Shown in pieces: positions 15,203-42,427 of a DNA stretch of 64,000 nt. Source of the stretch: Crocinitomicaceae bacterium (GTDB taxonomy: Bacteria; Bacteroidota; Bacteroidia; Flavobacteriales_G; Salibacteraceae); assembly GCA_002713215.1 (NCBI GenBank), contig PAVO01000019.1, positions 558,001-622,000 on the forward strand. The letters are read 5' to 3'. The position numbers and the translations under genes were made by a program. Position 1 is the first letter of the stretch. The number at the start of each line of letters is the position of its first letter. Under the pieces are notes generated by a model. That model made no database searches and was not told where the DNA came from. It worked only from the letters and a program-made list of their open reading frames with translations.

Positions 15203-17809
15203 TTGGCTACCAAGAAAAAAATTGCGGAAACCCCGTTAATGAAGCAATTCAACCAGATTAAATCAAAGTATCCTGATGCTTTGCTTTTGTTTCGGGTGGG
15301 CGATTTTTACGAAACCTTTGGTGAGGATGCAATCAAGGCATCCAAAATTCTGGGAATAATTCTTACCAAAAGAAAAAATGGCGCTGCTTCAACCATAGAA
15401 TTGGCAGGGTTTCCTCATCATTCGGTCGATACTTATTTGCCCAAATTGGTCCGGGCCGGGCTGCGGGTTGCCATATGTGATCAGTTGGAAGATCCCAAGA
15501 AAACAAAAACCATCGTTAAGCGTGGAGTTACTGAGTTGGTTACTCCTGGGGTCTCCTACAACGATAAAATACTGGAGCAGAATAACAACAATTTTTTGGC
15601 TTCCGTTTATATCGAGCGAAAAAGTGCGGGTGTTTCGTTTCTGGATATTTCGACCGGAGAGTTTTTTGTCTCTCAGGGCAGCATCGAATACATCGACAAA
15701 TTGCTTCAAAGCTTTTCGCCGAGCGAGGTGCTTTTTTCAAGGAATAAAAAGGCTCAGTTTGTTGAATGCTTTGGGGATAAACTTCATGCTTACTTTCTTG
15801 AGGATTGGGCTTTTAAATCAGATTTTGCCAATGAAAAACTGCTGGAACAGTTTGGAACCAATTCACTAAAAGGTTTTGGAATAGATGAATTGGATTTGGG
15901 TATCATAGCAGCAGGTGCTGCTTTGTTTTATTTGTCAGAAACTCAGCACAACAAAGTAGCACACATTTCGTCCGTTTCACGAATTAATGAATCGAACCAC
16001 GTTTGGCTAGATCGATTTACCATTCGCAACCTGGAGTTGTTTCACTCCCCACATCAGGGTGGAACAGCACTAATTGATATCATTGACAAAACCACATCTC
16101 CTATGGGAGGTAGAATGTTGAAGCGATGGTTGGCGCTTCCGTTGAAGGATAAACCGGCCATTGAATCGCGACACGAAATTGTGGATTGGTTGCTCCGAAA
16201 TAATGAGGAGTCGGATACACTTTCTAAAAAGATAGCCACCATAGGCGATATAGAACGACTGGTTTCGAAGGCGGCGATTCATCGTATTTCGCCCAGGGAA
16301 GTAAAACAGCTTCACGTTGGACTGAATGAAATTCCTGAAATTAAGAAGCTATTTGCCCAGTCGAAGAATAAGTATTTGGGTATTTTGGCGGATAAATTAA
16401 ATCCATGTGAACTCCTTTGTTCTAGGATCGAAGCGGAATTAACAGAAGACCCTCCGGTTCAGGTTCTCAAAGGAAATGTAATAAGTGAAGGTGTTTCTGG
16501 TGAGCTTGATGAACTTCGAAAGTTACGAAGTTCCGGAAAGGATTATTTGATTCAAATACAAGAAAGGGAAATAGAGAACACGGGTATTAGTTCACTTAAA
16601 ATTGGCTTCAATAATGTTTTTGGGTATTACCTGGAAGTGACCAATGCACACAAGAGTAAGGTGCCGGAAGAATGGGTTCGCAAGCAAACCTTAACCGGGT
16701 CGGAACGATACATTACCGAAGAGCTAAAGGAATACGAGTCTAAGATTTTAGGGGCAGAAGAAAAGATATTAGAACTTGAAACCGAATTGTTTGAGGAGTT
16801 GGTTACTGCAGTTGCCGAGTTCGTTAAACCCATTCAGTTAAATTCGGAAATAATCGGCCAGGTGGATTGCCTGTTGTGCTTTTCAAGATTAGCCACCGAT
16901 AACTTTTATACCCGACCTAAAATGAATGAAGGTTATGGGATTAGCATTCAGGATGGAAGGCATCCGGTAATTGAAACTCAACTGGCAGTAGACGAGAGTT
17001 ATGTTACCAACGACCTAAACGTAAATGACGATAAGCAACAGATTTTGATGATAACGGGACCCAATATGGTGGGTAAATCTGCTTATTTAAGACAGAATGC
17101 ACTCATTGTATTGCTGGCTCAAATTGGATCTTTTGTACCGGCTAAAAACGCCGAAATAGGTATTGTAGACCGGATCTTTACCCGGGTAGGGGCCAGTGAC
17201 AATATTTCTCAAGGGGAGTCCACCTTTATGGTCGAAATGAACGAAACCGCTAGTATTCTTAATAATCTTTCAAATAGAAGCCTTGTTATTTTGGATGAGA
17301 TTGGAAGGGGTACCAGTACCTACGATGGAATTTCAATAGCCTGGAGCATTACGGAGTATTTGCACAGCCATAAATTTAAGCCTCGAACCTTATTTGCTAC
17401 CCACTACCACGAACTCAACGAAATGACTAAAACCTTTGATCGGATTAAGAACTATAGTTTCTCGATCAAGGAGTTGGATAAGAAGGTGCTTTTTATTCGA
17501 AAGTTAATTCCCGGTGGAAGCGAGCATAGTTTTGGTATTCACGTGGCTAAAATGGCTGGCATGCCTTCCAAAGTGCTGTTAAAAGCGAATAAAATCCTGG
17601 CCGATTTGGAAAAGGCGAATCGTCAAAAGAAACCAACCAAGGAAGTTTTGAATACCCAGGAAAGCGATATGCAATTGAGCTTCTTCCAGTTGGATGATCC
17701 TACCTTGTCCCAGATTAAAGATGAGCTTATGCATATCGATATCAATACCTTAACGCCGGTGGAAGCATTGATGAAATTGAACGAAATAAAAAGTCTAATT
17801 GATGGTTGA
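15203..17809 (+). CDS. mutS: DNA mismatch repair protein MutS
   Basis: An 868-residue mismatch-recognition ATPase. It starts at TTG (15203); the frame then reads ATKKKIAETPLMKQFNQIK, the normal N-terminus. The mismatch-reading Phe-x-Glu lies in RVGDFYETFG (Phe35, Glu37). The connector, core and clamp regions follow. Walker A is GPNMVGKSAYLRQ (about 616-628), and Walker B is LVILDEIGRGTSTYDG (about 692-707). FATHYHELNEM and HSFGIHVAKMAGMP complete the ATPase domain. The last ~60 residues include a PTKEVLN..ESDMQLSFFQL segment, typical of the linker before the C-terminal tetramerisation helices. It is followed by a tRNA-Gly gene with its own promoter. Confidence 0.98.
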   Translation: MATKKKIAETPLMKQFNQIKSKYPDALLLFRVGDFYETFGEDAIKASKILGIILTKRKNGAASTIELAGFPHHSVDTYLPKLVRAGLRVAICDQLEDPKKTKTIVKRGVTELVTPGVSYNDKILEQNNNNFLASVYIERKSAGVSFLDISTGEFFVSQGSIEYIDKLLQSFSPSEVLFSRNKKAQFVECFGDKLHAYFLEDWAFKSDFANEKLLEQFGTNSLKGFGIDELDLGIIAAGAALFYLSETQHNKVAHISSVSRINESNHVWLDRFTIRNLELFHSPHQGGTALIDIIDKTTSPMGGRMLKRWLALPLKDKPAIESRHEIVDWLLRNNEESDTLSKKIATIGDIERLVSKAAIHRISPREVKQLHVGLNEIPEIKKLFAQSKNKYLGILADKLNPCELLCSRIEAELTEDPPVQVLKGNVISEGVSGELDELRKLRSSGKDYLIQIQEREIENTGISSLKIGFNNVFGYYLEVTNAHKSKVPEEWVRKQTLTGSERYITEELKEYESKILGAEEKILELETELFEELVTAVAEFVKPIQLNSEIIGQVDCLLCFSRLATDNFYTRPKMNEGYGISIQDGRHPVIETQLAVDESYVTNDLNVNDDKQQILMITGPNMVGKSAYLRQNALIVLLAQIGSFVPAKNAEIGIVDRIFTRVGASDNISQGESTFMVEMNETASILNNLSNRSLVILDEIGRGTSTYDGISIAWSITEYLHSHKFKPRTLFATHYHELNEMTKTFDRIKNYSFSIKELDKKVLFIRKLIPGGSEHSFGIHVAKMAGMPSKVLLKANKILADLEKANRQKKPTKEVLNTQESDMQLSFFQLDDPTLSQIKDELMHIDINTLTPVEALMKLNEIKSLIDG

Positions 17810-36482: not shown

Positions 36483-37046
36483 CTATAATGTATAACGATT
36501 CTCAATTATAAAATTTCTCCCATCTGAAGTACCAAGAAATGTAGCGTTAGAACCGCTACAGCCTGCACCTGCTGGACTGTTTTCATAATGGCTTGATTCG
36601 TTTTCAACTGCAGTTCTTAAGCCATAACTACTAAATGTAGCGGTTGCTCCACTGCCATTTGATCGAACAGTGATAATAATATCAAACCAATCTGCAAATT
36701 CACCTACAGGGTGTGGAACATTAATACAACCATTAGAACCTGGAGCAATAGTGACGCACAAATAACCTGGAGCCGGAGCCGGACAGTTTGCCAGTTCTGT
36801 TTCTTTTCCAGCCGTAGGAGTGTAAGAAATACAAATGGTTTTTTCACAGTTATCATACAACAGGCTGTTCTCAAAACAAAATTCTGTCGACGCTGAAAAA
36901 GGTGGGCATGGCGGATTGCCTTGAGTCCCTTCTTGAGCAAAGATTTCTGTACCGAAGAAAAAAAGTAAAAGGAAGAACATTACTCCCTTAAATAACGATT
37001 GCCCTATAAAGGGAATTCGAATTACGTTTGAAATTGAATTTTTCAT
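36483..37046 (-). CDS. Small secreted cysteine-containing protein A, LytTR-controlled
   Basis: A 187-residue exported protein with a signal to about residue 38 (FFLLLFFFGTEIFAQ). The mature part has nine cysteines and alternates short strands: TICISYTPTAGKETELANC, LCVTIAPGSNGCINVP, DWFDIIITVRSNGSG. This layout (C-x3-4-I-strand, NC, a proline-rich turn, then an IIxxV strand) is shared loosely with protein B at 37370, so the two look like distant paralogues with an Ig-like or beta-sandwich fold. There is no sorting domain or enzyme motif. A LytTR-type operator lies 113-142 bp upstream, and a leader segment shared with gene B lies closer to the start. Function unknown; surface or extracellular location inferred. 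Confidence 0.65.
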   Translation of the reverse strand: MKNSISNVIRIPFIGQSLFKGVMFFLLLFFFGTEIFAQEGTQGNPPCPPFSASTEFCFENSLLYDNCEKTICISYTPTAGKETELANCPAPAPGYLCVTIAPGSNGCINVPHPVGEFADWFDIIITVRSNGSGATATFSSYGLRTAVENESSHYENSPAGAGCSGSNATFLGTSDGRNFIIENRYTL

Positions 37047-37066
37047 ATTACTATATTTTAATAATT

Positions 37067-37094
37067 ACCTACTCTCTTATAGCTTTTCGGCTTC
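37067..37094 (-). repeat. Conserved leader segment, copy in front of gene A
   Basis: The bottom strand reads CCGAAAAGCTA-tAAg-AGAGTAGGT, nearly the same as 37811-37837 before gene B, and at the same short distance from the start codon. Conserved position suggests a promoter core or leader RNA signal. It is not a TAnnTTTG box. Confidence 0.6.
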
Positions 37095-37158
37095 TGCTTT
37101 CCAGCGGTAAAGGACTATTAAAAGTAGCAGAGGTCGACGTTAGAATTCTCTTAAATTG

Positions 37159-37188
37159 GTCAACGTTTGCAGATTTTCGCTTAACGTG
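37159..37188 (-). promoter_or_regulatory. Paired LytTR-type operator upstream of gene A
   Basis: On the bottom strand two direct repeats, CACGTTAAG and AACGTTGAC, are separated by 12 bp. LytTR regulators bind pairs of [TA][AC][CA]GTTN[AG][TG] repeats spaced 12-13 bp, so the layout fits. The same 30-bp arrangement occurs at 37902-37931 and 41851-41880. Confidence 0.75.
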
Positions 37189-37303
37189 GAATCGGAGATT
37201 TTTGGAATCAATTGAGTGGAGAATATGGTTATAAAAATGGATGCATCAAATGCATTGATTTATTTTAACTGAACTAGTTTGTGCTACCCTAACTTATAGC
37301 ATC

Positions 37304-37335
37304 AAAAAAGGCTGTTCTATTAAATAGAACAGCCT
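37304..37335 (-). terminator. Terminator of secreted protein B
   Basis: AGGCTGTTCTATT and AATAGAACAGCCT form a perfect 13-bp stem with a single-base loop. On the bottom strand it is followed by five or more Ts. Confidence 0.9.
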
Positions 37336-37369
37336 GGACCGGTTAAATTCTTACTAATTGTTGGTCCGT

Positions 37370-37792
37370 CTAATTAATTACCAGTGTGCCGTTACAAGGG
37401 TCGTAAATCATTGAAAAAGACGTGGCACAACATGGTGGGCCCACGGCGGGCCAGGACAAAACACCTGACATAGTACCCGGACCACCTTGTAGGCATAATG
37501 GCACACAATTTAATGCGTTAAGTGTAAGCGGAATAAAAAGGCACGAACCAGCAGGAGAAAGTTCAACCTCGTAAATTATTTCGCTATTCGGTGTACTCCA
37601 GGATTGCACAGAATTAGCTGGCAAGTGTAAGGAATGTCCAGTAGCCGTTGAGCCACAATTTGCTGGGTCGTCAAACGTGAAATTCACGGAGATATCAGTA
37701 CAGGAATTATTAGTTATGAGAATACTAGACTGAGCATGAATGCCTAAGGCCAGTACTCCGGCAAACAGGATAACTAAAGATATTTTTTTCAT
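37370..37792 (-). CDS. Small secreted cysteine-containing protein B, LytTR-controlled
   Basis: A 140-residue exported protein with a signal at residues 1-20 (AGVLALGIHAQ). The mature part reads NSCTDISVNFTFDDPANC, SLHLPANSVQSWSTP, IIYEVELSPAGSC and ends with cysteine-rich turns (NCVPLC, GPPCCATSF, DPCNGTLVIN). It contains nine cysteines in about 120 residues. The order of a Cys-led strand, an NC turn, a proline-rich turn and an IIYxV strand parallels protein A. No catalytic or sorting motif is seen. The gene lies directly downstream of the LytTR response regulator (stop to start about 140 bp) with an operator that abuts the regulator's stop codon. Its own terminator is strong, so it is an independent transcription unit. 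Confidence 0.68.
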   Translation of the reverse strand: MKKISLVILFAGVLALGIHAQSSILITNNSCTDISVNFTFDDPANCGSTATGHSLHLPANSVQSWSTPNSEIIYEVELSPAGSCLFIPLTLNALNCVPLCLQGGPGTMSGVLSWPAVGPPCCATSFSMIYDPCNGTLVIN

Positions 37793-37810
37793 ATTGTTTT
37801 TTTTAAGATC

Positions 37811-37837
37811 ACCTACTCTATTGTAGCTTTTCGGTTT
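37811..37837 (-). repeat. Conserved leader segment, copy in front of gene B
   Basis: The bottom strand reads CCGAAAAGCTA-cAAt-AGAGTAGGT, matching the copy at 37067-37094. It lies about 20-45 bp before the ATG of gene B. Confidence 0.6.
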
Positions 37838-37901
37838 CCGCTTTGGGTAGTAAAAAACCGAAAAAAAAGCGGTAAAATGGGTGGTACACTTTCATTTGAA
37901 A

Positions 37902-37931
37902 GTCAACGTACATGGATTTTCGCTTAACGTT
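37902..37931 (-). promoter_or_regulatory. Paired LytTR-type operator upstream of gene B
   Basis: The bottom strand has AACGTTAAG, a 12-bp spacer, then TACGTTGAC. The first half fits the LytTR consensus at every position, the second at eight of nine. It sits 2 bp beyond the stop of the LytTR regulator gene. Confidence 0.78.
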
Positions 37932-37933
37932 GG

Positions 37934-38689
37934 TTAATGGACAAAGCGATTTCGAATTGCCTCATTGAATTTGTGCCTTCTTCTATGGGCAACCTCCAAT
38001 TGTCGGTGATCGGTGAGCAATACGTGTCCTGAGTGGTTATCATATCCCGAGATGTGATTTAGGTTAATCATATGCGAACGGTGAATACGAAAAAAGGAGT
38101 TTTTAGAAAAAAGATCGTCGTAGTATTTCAGTGGTTTGGTGCACAAATATTGCCTTCCATCAAGCATGTAAAAAAGTGCGTAGTTACCGGGCTTGGATTC
38201 TATACTAACAATTTTATCCAATGACAGGGTTCGAAACCCGGTTTTAGAACTGATAATAATTTTGTCAAAGATCACTCGACCACGATCCAATTCCTGAAAG
38301 TGCTCGATCCGATTATCTTCTGTACCGAGAAATTCCTGCACTCGTTCTATTGATCGATTAAGCTCCTTTTCACTAATCGGTTTCAATAAGTAGTCAAGTG
38401 CCGAGTATTTAAACGCCTTAATGGCATATTGGTCATATCCAGTAATAAAAATGACCTTAAATGCATTGTGTTCAAACGTTTTAAGGATTTCAAATCCGTT
38501 TAGCTCCGGCATTTCAATATCGAGCAATACCAGTTCAGGTTTTAGTTCATTGATCAAATGGACACCTTCAATCGCAGATGAGGTACTTCCGACGACCGTA
38601 ATACCTTCTTTGTTCTGAAGCATCATTTCCAATACGTCAATACAGTCTGGTTCATCGTCTATTAATATGACACGAATGGAATGACTCAT
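37934..38689 (-). CDS. LytTR-family response regulator
   Basis: A 251-residue two-component regulator. The receiver domain spans residues 5-120, with the acidic pair IDDEPD near 10, phospho-acceptor Asp in LVLLDIEMPE (about 57), Thr-equivalent IFITGYDQYA and Lys in YLLKPISEKEL. The LytTR DNA-binding domain (about 145-250) contains IISSKTGFRTLSLDKIVSIE, YYDDLFSKNSFFRIHRSHMI and the closing VAHRRRHKFNEAI. Its stop is followed 2 bp later by a LytTR-type operator. The start overlaps the sensor kinase stop by 4 bp (ATGA), so both are one operon. It most likely controls the two secreted-protein genes beside it. Confidence 0.95.
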   Translation of the reverse strand: MSHSIRVILIDDEPDCIDVLEMMLQNKEGITVVGSTSSAIEGVHLINELKPELVLLDIEMPELNGFEILKTFEHNAFKVIFITGYDQYAIKAFKYSALDYLLKPISEKELNRSIERVQEFLGTEDNRIEHFQELDRGRVIFDKIIISSKTGFRTLSLDKIVSIESKPGNYALFYMLDGRQYLCTKPLKYYDDLFSKNSFFRIHRSHMINLNHISGYDNHSGHVLLTDHRQLEVAHRRRHKFNEAIRNRFVH

Positions 38690-41493
38690 AGAATTGGCAA
38701 TATTAATTTTATAACAGTTCCTGTACCAGTTAGTATGTTTAACGGTGATATTTCCATTTTAGTTGATGGATACTTTTCACTCAAAATGCTAATTCTTCTT
38801 GACAGGATGTCCAGTCCGAATGAATTTTTTGATCGATTTGCAATTGGCTTATCCAAAGGTTTTATTCCCTTTCCATCGTCCGCTATTTCCACCTTTACGT
38901 ATTCCTTGTTATATATATCGAAACGTATGGAAATGGTTACCGTTGCCTTTTCAAATGCATGTTTTATGGCATTCTCACAGATAGGTTGAATCATCATTGG
39001 TGGAATCTCTATCTCTGTATCCAACTGTTTCTCAATCATCAGATCATAATTGAATCGATCTTTAAACCGCTGTTGCTCTATCGTCATATAATTGTTGATG
39101 AATTCGACTTCATCTTCCAGGCAAATGGATTCTGCGCGGGAATATTCCAGGCTTGAACGCAACAACACCGCAAGGTTTCCAACAATTTCATTTGCTGTGG
39201 CTTTGTCCTCATGTAGTAACGATTTTTGGACGGAGCTTAGGGTGTTAAAAGCGAAATGGGGATTCATTTGTCCTCTAAGCAATGCCAATTCAGTGTGATC
39301 CAATTTGCTTTTCATTTCTTGTGCAACGCGTCTTTCCTTATTTCTTGTATGCCGGTAGTTGGAGAGTTTTTTTATGGTAAAGTATAATGAAACTGCAATC
39401 AGTCCTAGGAGACTGGCCTGAGCCCACCAGTAGCTATACCAGGTTGGACGAATAGTAAAAGTGGTGGTTTCGGGTTTTGCCCAATTGCCATTTTCCGACC
39501 GTGCCGTTATTGAAAACCTATACTTCCCAGGAGAAAGCTCTGCAAATGAGATTGACCTTTTATTGGTGTTCCTCCATTCTTCAGAGGAGTTATCTTTTTC
39601 GAGCTTGTAACGAAAAAAGGATTGATGAATAGGTTTTTTAAAAGAAATACCCAAATACTTAATGGACAAACTGTTTTGATCATGGTTAAATGTGATTCCT
39701 GAGTTGTAATTCGAACCGTTTTGCTGAATACCGAGAATTGAAACCACCGGGGGTTGGATACTAGCGGAATGGTTGAGCCCGCTACATTCAATCAAGCCTT
39801 TGTCAGATATTGCCCAAATATCTCCTTCCAACTCCGTCAGGCGAATTATGAAGTCAGCACCCAATCCATTTTTGGTCGAAAAGTTGGTGATTTTTATGTC
39901 CCCATTAGTGCTAAAAATATCAGATTCGGTGTGAATTCTGCCAAGTCCTTTATTTGTGGCACACCAAATAGAACCGTCACTTCCAACCAAAATATCATTG
40001 ACCGCACTTGAGACCAGCCCTGATTCCTCGTTAATAAATTTCAGTTGTTGATTTTTGACGCACAGAACGCCTTTATTTGATGTGCCAAATAGCAGGGTAC
40101 TATCCTCGGTTGAGGTAATTTTTCTTACTGTAGTATTTTCAAGCCGATAATCTTCCGTAAGATTCGTGACGATTGTTTTGTCATAGAATTGATAAAGGCT
40201 ATCATACGTGCTGCAATAGAAGAGTTTATTATTAAGTACATGTAAACTAATAATTTTGGTTGGGAGGTACTTAAGAAGATAGGGTTCTTCCATGTAGTTT
40301 ATATGGACTACTGCCAAGTAATGTCCTTGACCTCGTGCAATTGCCTCATTGTTACCATAATTTTCAAGTTGTACATAATGTCCCAAGGAGGGTATTAATT
40401 CCACAGTAAGTTTTTGTTTGCCGGAAATTTTAATTCCATGTGCTCCAAATACATACTCGTCGAATTTTTGAAGGGTTTCAACTTCGAGCGGGAACGTTCC
40501 AAGATCTATTTTTTCTCCTGAAAGTGGGTTAAAGCAGATGATTTTACCTTCCCTTGATCCGATCAATATAGACCCGTTATAACCTGCAACGGATTCTCCC
40601 TGGTCTCCTGAATCAAGAAATTTATCAATGGGATAAAACCTAAAACTCAATGAAGGGATTTTAATAATTCCCCTGTTAAGTGTAGATACCCAATAATTAC
40701 CATCTCGGTCTTTGGTGAAACTGGTTGCAGCTTCAATGGAGAAATTCAAGGTATCAGTAGGACTCTTTATTGAAATTCCATTTTTGGTCAGATACAACCG
40801 TTCGTTTGTGTGAATTTCTTCAAAAAGGTGATCTTTACTTGATTTTCCTATTTTGCTTCCCGCACTTTTCTTAAGAACCAGATTCAAATGCGCCGTTTTT
40901 TCGTTTAGTTCAGATACAGCCACGTAGAGATTGTCGTATTCATAGACTCCTTCCCTTGGAATTCTCGATTTTTTTACCGAAGAGTCTTTGGAGTCGATCC
41001 GCAACACTATTGGGCTTGAGTCTTTAGTCGAAATTGGGGAAACATAGAGGTATTGTTTATTATCCTCGAAGCCTACACAGTAATACCATCTTGAAGGCAC
41101 AACATGTGGCTTTAATAATTCATTGGCCCAGAAGGGATAAAATTGATCGGTTCGATAATCATAGCAAAATAGACTACCGTTGTAACAACAAAACCATAAA
41201 ACGTGATCTTTATCTTCGTAGACGGAAAATACCGTATTATACGACAGTCCATCTTCGGTAGAGAAGTTTTCAAATTCATAACCATTGTAACGTGATACTC
41301 CGCGGTCTGTACACACCCAAATGAACCCTCTGTGATCCTGATGAATGAAATATGTTTCTGAGCTTGGCAATCCATCGGTTACTGAATAGTGAATAAAGTT
41401 TAGCTGTTCGTAAGTAGCGTAGCTAAGACCAGGTATAAGCGTTAGGCTTAATATTAGAAATAGAAAAGTACTTTTTTGCTTCCTAATGTTCAA
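38686..41493 (-). CDS. Sensor histidine kinase, two-component-propeller / LytS (His_kinase) type
   Basis: A 935-residue membrane sensor starting at TTG (41493). A signal peptide (1-26) is followed by periplasmic propeller repeats (QDHRGFIWVCTDRGVSRYNG, EDKDHVLWFCCYNGSLF, DGNYWVSTLNRGII, DGSIWCATNKGLGRI), then a Y_Y_Y domain (about 600-680, SFAELSPGKYRFSITARSEN). One membrane helix lies near 683-705. The cytoplasmic LytS-type kinase has the phospho-acceptor His in MNPHFAFN (about 742) and ATP-binding motifs MIQPICENAIKHAFE and ADDGKGIKPL. It senses an extracellular or periplasmic signal and phosphorylates the overlapping LytTR regulator. The ligand is unknown. Propellers here are unlike the large SusR-type hybrid sensors, which carry the regulator in the same chain. 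Confidence 0.94.
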   Translation of the reverse strand: MNIRKQKSTFLFLILSLTLIPGLSYATYEQLNFIHYSVTDGLPSSETYFIHQDHRGFIWVCTDRGVSRYNGYEFENFSTEDGLSYNTVFSVYEDKDHVLWFCCYNGSLFCYDYRTDQFYPFWANELLKPHVVPSRWYYCVGFEDNKQYLYVSPISTKDSSPIVLRIDSKDSSVKKSRIPREGVYEYDNLYVAVSELNEKTAHLNLVLKKSAGSKIGKSSKDHLFEEIHTNERLYLTKNGISIKSPTDTLNFSIEAATSFTKDRDGNYWVSTLNRGIIKIPSLSFRFYPIDKFLDSGDQGESVAGYNGSILIGSREGKIICFNPLSGEKIDLGTFPLEVETLQKFDEYVFGAHGIKISGKQKLTVELIPSLGHYVQLENYGNNEAIARGQGHYLAVVHINYMEEPYLLKYLPTKIISLHVLNNKLFYCSTYDSLYQFYDKTIVTNLTEDYRLENTTVRKITSTEDSTLLFGTSNKGVLCVKNQQLKFINEESGLVSSAVNDILVGSDGSIWCATNKGLGRIHTESDIFSTNGDIKITNFSTKNGLGADFIIRLTELEGDIWAISDKGLIECSGLNHSASIQPPVVSILGIQQNGSNYNSGITFNHDQNSLSIKYLGISFKKPIHQSFFRYKLEKDNSSEEWRNTNKRSISFAELSPGKYRFSITARSENGNWAKPETTTFTIRPTWYSYWWAQASLLGLIAVSLYFTIKKLSNYRHTRNKERRVAQEMKSKLDHTELALLRGQMNPHFAFNTLSSVQKSLLHEDKATANEIVGNLAVLLRSSLEYSRAESICLEDEVEFINNYMTIEQQRFKDRFNYDLMIEKQLDTEIEIPPMMIQPICENAIKHAFEKATVTISIRFDIYNKEYVKVEIADDGKGIKPLDKPIANRSKNSFGLDILSRRISILSEKYPSTKMEISPLNILTGTGTVIKLILPIL

Positions 41494-41850
41494 GGGCTTA
41501 GCTTAATCAGTTGCTCAATCATGTACTTTATCGAATTAAAATGGTTTTGCATGCTACTTAAGCTAAACTTGGTAGATGTATATTGCAGTTGACCAGTCAT
41601 TTTACGAATTGCTACTACGGTTAAATCCTTTGAATCATTATAAATGACTAAAATAAGTATCAAAACTCTTCTATGCTTTGGAACATGTCAATAAGGGTTT
41701 ACCCTCATTTTTCGACTGATTGTTTTTTGTTTAGCATGTTACAATCAAAAACTTGTGAATTAAGGTGTTAGTTTATTCATACATATTACAACATGGCTGA
41801 TTGACGATTAAGCTTGAAGCAGGCTATTCTATTGGTTAATAGAATATTAC
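41494..41850. other. Gene-free upstream region of the sensor kinase
   Basis: No open frame of interest on either strand. It must hold the promoter of the sensor operon, but no clean TAnnTTTG box is seen on the bottom strand. At its right end is a hairpin, TATTCTATT-ggtt-AATAGAATA (about 41825-41846). It resembles the terminator stem at 37309-37335 and immediately precedes the third LytTR operator. Confidence 0.4.
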
Positions 41851-41880
41851 AACGTTAAGCGAAGATAATCGAACGTTGGC
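41851..41880 (+). promoter_or_regulatory. Third paired LytTR-type operator, facing a gene-free stretch
   Basis: The top strand has AACGTTAAG (41851-41859), a 12-bp spacer beginning CGAA, then AACGTTGGC (41872-41880). It is the best match to the other two operators and reads in the opposite orientation. No protein-coding gene follows it; the next element downstream is a terminator hairpin at about 42024-42056. Confidence 0.7.
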
Positions 41881-42023
41881 TTATAAAGCGAGGTCAGGTG
41901 CAAGATCTTAGTACTGTTTTACATTTTTTATATGTGTTAAGGTATTTGGGTTTTGCTGCAGAGTTGGTTTTATCCTAAATTTTTATGTGTAAGAAACATG
42001 TCTTCATTTTGAGTATTAAGAAC

Positions 42024-42079
42024 AAAAAAGGTTGCTCAAACTAATGAACAACCTTTTAATAAGTACAAGCGGAGAGACT
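42024..42079. repeat. tRNA-Leu 3'-end plus terminator repeat, copy 1
   Basis: A terminator-like hairpin (AAAAGGTTG...CAACCTTTT) followed by GTAC-A-AGCGGAGAGACT. It is a near copy of the terminator and 3' end of tRNA-Leu at 42308-42361. Beyond it a GCGGAGAGAC / GTCTCGTCTCCGC inverted repeat closes at 42152, forming a long imperfect hairpin instead of a tRNA body. The hairpin can also end transcription coming from the operator at 41851. Confidence 0.65.
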
Positions 42080-42177
42080 TCCCTCCATTCGTTCCTCACT
42101 CGGGATAAACTTTTTAACTGCCGAAAAGAAATGAAGGTACGTCTCGTCTCCGCAACCAGCTTTTTACGATTAGACAC

Positions 42178-42233
42178 AAAAAAAAGACTCTCCAAATAAA
42201 TGAATAGCCTTTCAAAGTACAGGTGGAGAGACT
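42178..42233. repeat. tRNA-Leu 3'-end repeat, copy 2
   Basis: An A run, a diverged hairpin (AGACTCTCC...ATAGCCT), then CAAAGTACAGGTGGAGAGACT, the same 3'-end signature as tRNA-Leu with one change. TGGAGAGAC here pairs perfectly with GTCTCTCCA ending at 42280. The unit is therefore a stem-loop of about 55 bp, not a tRNA. Confidence 0.65.
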
Positions 42234-42307
42234 TGCTTTGGCTTCCTTTGGTCGCTCAGCATAGACTTCTCGTCTCTCCAATTCTAATATTCTGGTTTTT
42301 GGTAAAT

Positions 42308-42361
42308 AAAAAAGGTTGTCCACATAAATGAACAACCTTTCAAAGTACAGGCGGAGAGACT
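42308..42361 (-). terminator. tRNA-Leu terminator, with repeat copy 3
   Basis: On the bottom strand AAAGGTTGT and ACAACCTTT form a stem followed by six Ts, directly after tRNA-Leu. Together with the last 16 bases of the tRNA it is the parent of the two partial copies at 42024 and 42178. Confidence 0.8.
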
Positions 42362-42427
42362 CGAACTCTCACACCTCGCGGCACTAGATCCTAAGTCTAG
42401 CGTGTCTACCAATTCCACCACGCCTGC
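42346..42427 (-). tRNA. tRNA-Leu (anticodon TAG)
   Basis: An 82-nt class II tRNA. The acceptor GCAGGCG pairs with CGCCTGT, the discriminator is A, and the CCA end is not encoded. The D region is TGGTGGAATTGGTAGACACG. The anticodon stem is CTAGA/TCTAG with TAG in the loop CTTAGGA. A variable arm is present, and the T arm is GAGAG-TTCGAGT-CTCTC. Confidence 0.94.

Follow-up and report, generated by a model that had tools for sequence, protein, structure and literature searches.

Three candidate LytTR operators and two DUF805b pseudoknot leaders suggest two-layered control of secreted-protein genes beside a LytS/LytTR pair in a Crocinitomicaceae bacterium

The window, the whole 64,000-nucleotide stretch of DNA analyzed here, carries a gene for a LytTR response regulator (37934..38689, minus strand) whose product joins a receiver domain (PF00072, 6.5e-23) to a LytTR domain (PF04397, 7e-14). 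It is preceded, with an overlap of 4 bp, by a gene for a LytS-type membrane kinase (38686..41493, minus strand, TTG start) of 935 aa, which has a signal peptide and a Reg_prop and Y_Y_Y sensor followed by His_kinase and HATPase domains (PF06580, 1.6e-21; PF07494; PF07495; PF02518). Two genes for small secreted proteins lie on the same strand, namely secreted gene 1 (36483..37046, 187 aa) and secreted gene 2 (37370..37792, 140 aa). Each product has a signal peptide and 8 cysteines, neither matched a family in Pfam or NCBIfam, and the predicted folds of the mature proteins reached pLDDT values of 37.5 and 50.7, too low for use. The initial annotation had described a LytTR regulator and a propeller-type LytS kinase adjoining two secreted cysteine-containing proteins, and our domain and signal-peptide searches agree with it. 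A terminator-like hairpin downstream of secreted gene 2 (37309..37335, minus strand) divides the two secreted genes. Therefore, secreted gene 1 appears to be a separate unit that needs its own promoter.

Three 30-bp sites accompany these genes, each made of two 9-bp direct repeats around a 12-bp spacer. Candidate operator 1 (37159..37188, minus strand, CACGTTAAGCGAAAATCTGCAAACGTTGAC) sits upstream of secreted gene 1, where that promoter would be required, and candidate operator 2 (37902..37931, minus strand, AACGTTAAGCGAAAATCCATGTACGTTGAC) follows right after the stop codon of the LytTR gene, upstream of secreted gene 2; both are oriented towards the secreted genes. Candidate operator 3 (41851..41880, plus strand, AACGTTAAGCGAAGATAATCGAACGTTGGC) lies 358 nt upstream of the start of lytS and is oriented away from it. 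All three sites are identical at 21 of 30 positions (.ACGTTAAGCGAA.AT......ACGTTG.C), and this conservation takes in the start of the spacer (CGAA.AT). A search of the window that allowed up to 3 mismatches returned 4 matches, compared with an average of 0.27 and never 4 in 100 shuffles; the fourth match was a second reading of site 2, whose self-complementary AACGTT core also fits on the opposite strand. The three copies were thus confirmed in position and layout as first annotated, and the window holds them at no other place, as had also been claimed. When the search was extended to the 5.03-Mb genome (98.9 % complete), a 29-base pattern gave 3 perfect matches, all at this locus, and besides these a single match with 3 mismatches, the same number as its backwards control.

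Part of the spacer is conserved along with the repeats, as would be expected if the sites were functionless remnants of a duplicated promoter sequence. However, similarity among the sites ends sharply at their edges, with 23-24/30 positions shared inside and only 13-25/60 in the 60 bp on each side. Since the flanks are unlike, duplication of a longer segment does not account for the three sites, and we regard an origin as inert remnants as very improbable. Phylogenetic footprinting of the sites found no close orthologue of the locus, the best relatives of the regulator being 46-47 % identical and those of the kinase at most 32 % over nearly the whole length.

As far as sequence can tell, the 9-12-9 geometry of the three sites is that of LytTR operators, which have two 9-bp direct repeats with a 12-13 bp spacer. 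The initial annotation had assigned them to the known LytTR site form, and the assignment holds for the geometry and fails for the strict half-site consensus: the pair [TA][AC][CA]GTTN[AG][TG] at N12-13 found no match in a scan of the window and fits none of the three sites, each of which has C as the last base of its second repeat. We therefore relied on repeat geometry instead of sequence consensus. Published LytTR sites are likewise 9-12-9 repeats with poorly conserved sequence and highly conserved spacing (PMC6193735). The locus resembles LytS/LytR-type systems such as AgrC/AgrA, AlgZ/AlgR, and BtsS/BtsR in its PF06580 kinase partner, its receiver plus LytTR regulator, and its paired direct repeats with a 12-bp spacer. 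It differs from them in that the kinase has a propeller sensor of the Bacteroidota kind (Reg_prop/Y_Y_Y), the target genes carry an RNA pseudoknot leader, and the half-sites depart from the strict consensus. It also shares 9-12-9 repeats of diverged sequence and kept geometry, as well as small secreted products, with the LytTR regulatory systems (LRS; PMC6193735). LRS, however, have a membrane inhibitor in place of a kinase and repeats in promoter orientation before their own operon, whereas a histidine kinase is present here and site 3 points away from lytS.

Despite this orientation, the self-complementary AACGTT core means that site 3 could serve lytS; it could also drive a short rightward transcript. 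Such a transcript, possibly under LytTR control, would contain a 19-codon open reading frame (MCKKHVFILSIKNKKGCSN, 41985-42044, plus strand) and end at a hairpin at 42026-42057, and site 3 would then not autoregulate lytS. Site 3 faces this stretch as sites 1 and 2 face their genes, and both the reading frame and the hairpin are present to its right. Against this stand the lack of a clear promoter or a DUF805b RNA in the stretch, the fact that the hairpin copies part of the terminator region of a tRNA-Leu gene, and the possibility that the core acts both ways. We consider it unlikely, though not far-fetched, that site 3 serves the rightward transcript in place of lytS. The tRNA in question, tRNA-Leu(tag), lies at 42345-42427 (minus strand) and is followed by three degenerate copies of its 3' end and terminator (42021-42361, at spacings of 154-156 and 128 bp), which appear to be left over from an integration or duplication at this tRNA.

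Both secreted genes also carry a DUF805b RNA (RF02914) in the 5' leader near the start codon. The leader of secreted gene 1 (37066..37100, minus strand) scored 44.5 bits and that of secreted gene 2 (37810..37844, minus strand) 42.6 bits, above the curated Rfam gathering threshold of 35.6. The motif begins 59 bp after the operator in gene 1 and 58 bp after it in gene 2, and 17-19 nt separate its end from the ATG (coordinate differences of 20 and 18 bp, respectively). Despite these matched distances, the sequence between operator and DUF805b is unrelated in the two leaders. In Bacteroides, LytTR sites are followed by 11 bp, the promoter, 19 bp, and the -7 box (PMC6193735). With this spacing, the predicted transcription start falls about 10 nt ahead of DUF805b. 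A candidate -7 box in gene 1 (TACTTTTA, 37119..37126, minus strand), a weak consensus match, lies at about the place so foreseen, 32 nt after operator 1 and approximately 18 nt before the RNA motif. No clear Bacteroidota promoter or -7 box was found for gene 2. Because both secreted genes carry a DUF805b leader at matched distances, their control is probably two-layered.

The initial annotation had described a dedicated, self-contained signalling-secretion module; the gene pair, the secreted genes, and the uniqueness of the sites in the genome bear this out in part, and the DUF805b leaders had been missed. Genome-wide, four DUF805b RNAs exceeded the threshold, all before small secreted-type proteins, and operators were present only at the two of this locus. 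The genome also holds 16 LytTR domains, and binding of the sites by the neighboring LytTR protein is a prediction. The sites might then be bound by a different regulator, perhaps one of the other LytTR-domain proteins among the 16, with adjacency being incidental, a view that also draws on the lack of such sites at the other two DUF805b genes. However, the only three copies in the 5.03 Mb all flank the LytS/LytTR genes, and we judge control by a different regulator to be improbable. One of the other DUF805b genes (L001:579-1277 and 1501-1537, G000:C25) adjoins a LuxR-type HTH regulator, and no LytTR-type repeat was found at it. The only homologue of secreted protein 2 among 149 relatives searched (approximately 40 % identity, in G011) has no DUF805b.

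DUF805b is listed in Rfam as an orphan cis-regulatory family with no assigned function, and a full-text literature search found no paper on its function. The nested model displayed by Rfam is a single hairpin. In a 46-sequence alignment, a loop triplet xCC and a downstream GGx' form a second helix, in which 97 % of cells pair and two of the three pairs vary on both sides. None of 500 shuffles attained the covariation score found for the entire structure, and the outer pair was standard in 169/184 sequences, with all four Watson-Crick types represented. DUF805b is therefore a covarying H-type pseudoknot. The second helix goes beyond the displayed Rfam model, with which the comparison was made; the link to LytTR-type operators is likewise added here.

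We collected 184 DUF805b loci from Bacteroidia. In the discovery set (the first 95 loci, mostly from the same family, with 92 upstream regions), 9-mer direct repeats at a pitch of exactly 21 bp occurred in 10/92 regions, compared with a mean of 0.67 at other pitches. We then fixed the pitch at 21 bp beforehand for an independent test, which covered 86 loci, free of redundancy and drawn from other genomes within the class. Repeats at this pitch occurred in 8/86 regions, compared with an average of 0.84 regions (sd 1.10, maximum 4) for 43 other pitches. Both sets combined gave 18/178 regions compared with 1.51 on average at other pitches, and no pitch-21 excess was found in the upstream regions of 361 further genes from these loci (3 vs 2.49). 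Some loci have a triple repeat at this pitch, for example CACTTTCAA three times. Half-sites vary from locus to locus, so that a geometry is shared by differing sequences, as in LytTR operators (PMC6193735). Some of them (CCAGTATCA/CCAGAATCA) resemble the Bacteroides sites, which have the form TCCGGTATTCA-11 bp-ACCGGAAATCA (PMC6193735). By repeat geometry, LytTR-type operators before DUF805b pseudoknot leaders form a pattern broader than this locus.

Adjacent genes were examined as well. A LytTR gene lay directly upstream of DUF805b, on the same strand and within 400 bp, in 5/184 loci compared with approximately 0.48 expected, the limit having been set after the data were seen and the expectation being a rough one from LytTR gene counts at one gene per kb with half on the same strand. 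The count covers immediately adjacent genes; LytTR density in the wide neighborhood was set aside. The five cases are the window, G013:C41, G002:C20, G080:C2, and G114:C15; in G013:C41 and G002:C20 the order of kinase, regulator, DUF805b, and secreted gene is the same as in the window, with a site only at the DUF805b gene and none at lytS. In the relatives, the numbers of DUF805b and LytTR genes per genome were correlated, with rho 0.80 (0.60 per Mb). The independent set gave rho 0.19, and we dropped this correlation as proof. About 90 % of DUF805b loci have no strong 21-bp repeat, and genome G187 has one LytTR gene and four DUF805b RNAs, which argues that DUF805b is not obligatorily LytTR-controlled.

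The motif ACGCTCA-N14-ACGCTCA, found in triple repeats at some places, is operator-like and genome-wide in two relatives (L245-L264), with 15 matches in G002 (0 in the backwards control) and 7 in G013 (3 in the backwards control). Many intergenic copies precede signal-peptide genes, only some of which have DUF805b. Because motif copies often occur without DUF805b and most DUF805b genes are without strong repeats, operator and DUF805b are, on this evidence, separable modules that are combined often but not always. The same geometry can apparently define a scattered, multi-locus regulon in G002 and G013, unlike here, and the term self-contained fits this genome but is not general.

We consider it likely that a dedicated LytS/LytTR switch activates the two secreted-protein genes and that the DUF805b pseudoknot leaders provide a second layer of control. 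The reading rests on the genes, domains, sites, RNA motifs, and distances seen at the locus, on the uniqueness of the sites in the genome, and on the statistical association of 21-bp repeats with DUF805b across relatives. In this scheme, the kinase, a membrane protein whose propeller sensor is extracytoplasmic, would phosphorylate the LytTR regulator. The regulator would in turn bind the 9-12-9 direct repeats and activate two units, each with a single gene for a small secreted cysteine-containing protein and each transcribed from the predicted start about 10 nt before DUF805b. The H-type pseudoknot 17-19 nt before the AUG would then add post-transcriptional control of translation or mRNA stability. 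The pseudoknot ends where the ribosome footprint has its edge, a position suggesting that a ligand or protein may act through it on translation initiation or mRNA stability.

The weight of the two layers could also be reversed, with the secreted genes regulated mainly by DUF805b and the repeats giving basal or minor transcriptional input. The nearly fixed distance from DUF805b to the AUG (17-21 nt in 109/176 genes), its occurrence ahead of unrelated genes (1 to 23 copies per genome), and the fact that only about a tenth of loci have detectable repeats all speak for this arrangement, whereas the three near-identical sites, by their repeat pitch, position, and conservation, favor a real transcriptional input at this locus. 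We take a leading role for DUF805b to be unlikely, though not remote, as an alternative to the LytS/LytTR switch with a second RNA layer.

More broadly, we put forward as a tentative possibility that the DUF805b pseudoknot acts as a translation switch across Bacteroidota, superimposed on promoters under LytTR control. If so, a 21-bp repeat, approximately 60 bp, a pseudoknot, approximately 19 nt, and the AUG would form a common cassette for secreted proteins and peptide-like products, and secretion or antagonism would need two separate signals. DUF805b gains a regulatory context, namely genes with LytTR-type operators and mostly secreted products. Together with the covarying pseudoknot and a compact locus with an adjoining regulator, this context makes the role of DUF805b directly testable. 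The 21-bp-pitch rule also offers a way to find LytTR operators without knowing the half-site sequence; the Bacteroidota genomes examined contain up to 76 LytTR domains. Of the genes downstream of DUF805b, 104/176 encode signal-peptide proteins by a simple hydrophobicity rule, and peptides with GG-like leaders are among the products. DUF805b precedes double-glycine-leader, cysteine-rich peptides at L193 (G222:C1:2168594 and 2170478), L085 (G011:C1:2646039 and 2647488), L231, and L199, which by sequence appear to be of bacteriocin or RiPP type. At L097 (G013:C205:23731-24835), four tandem peptides of 44-46 aa with a GG-type leader each come with a separate DUF805b RNA; a gene for a LytTR regulator is found approximately 7 kb away, at 16018-16728.
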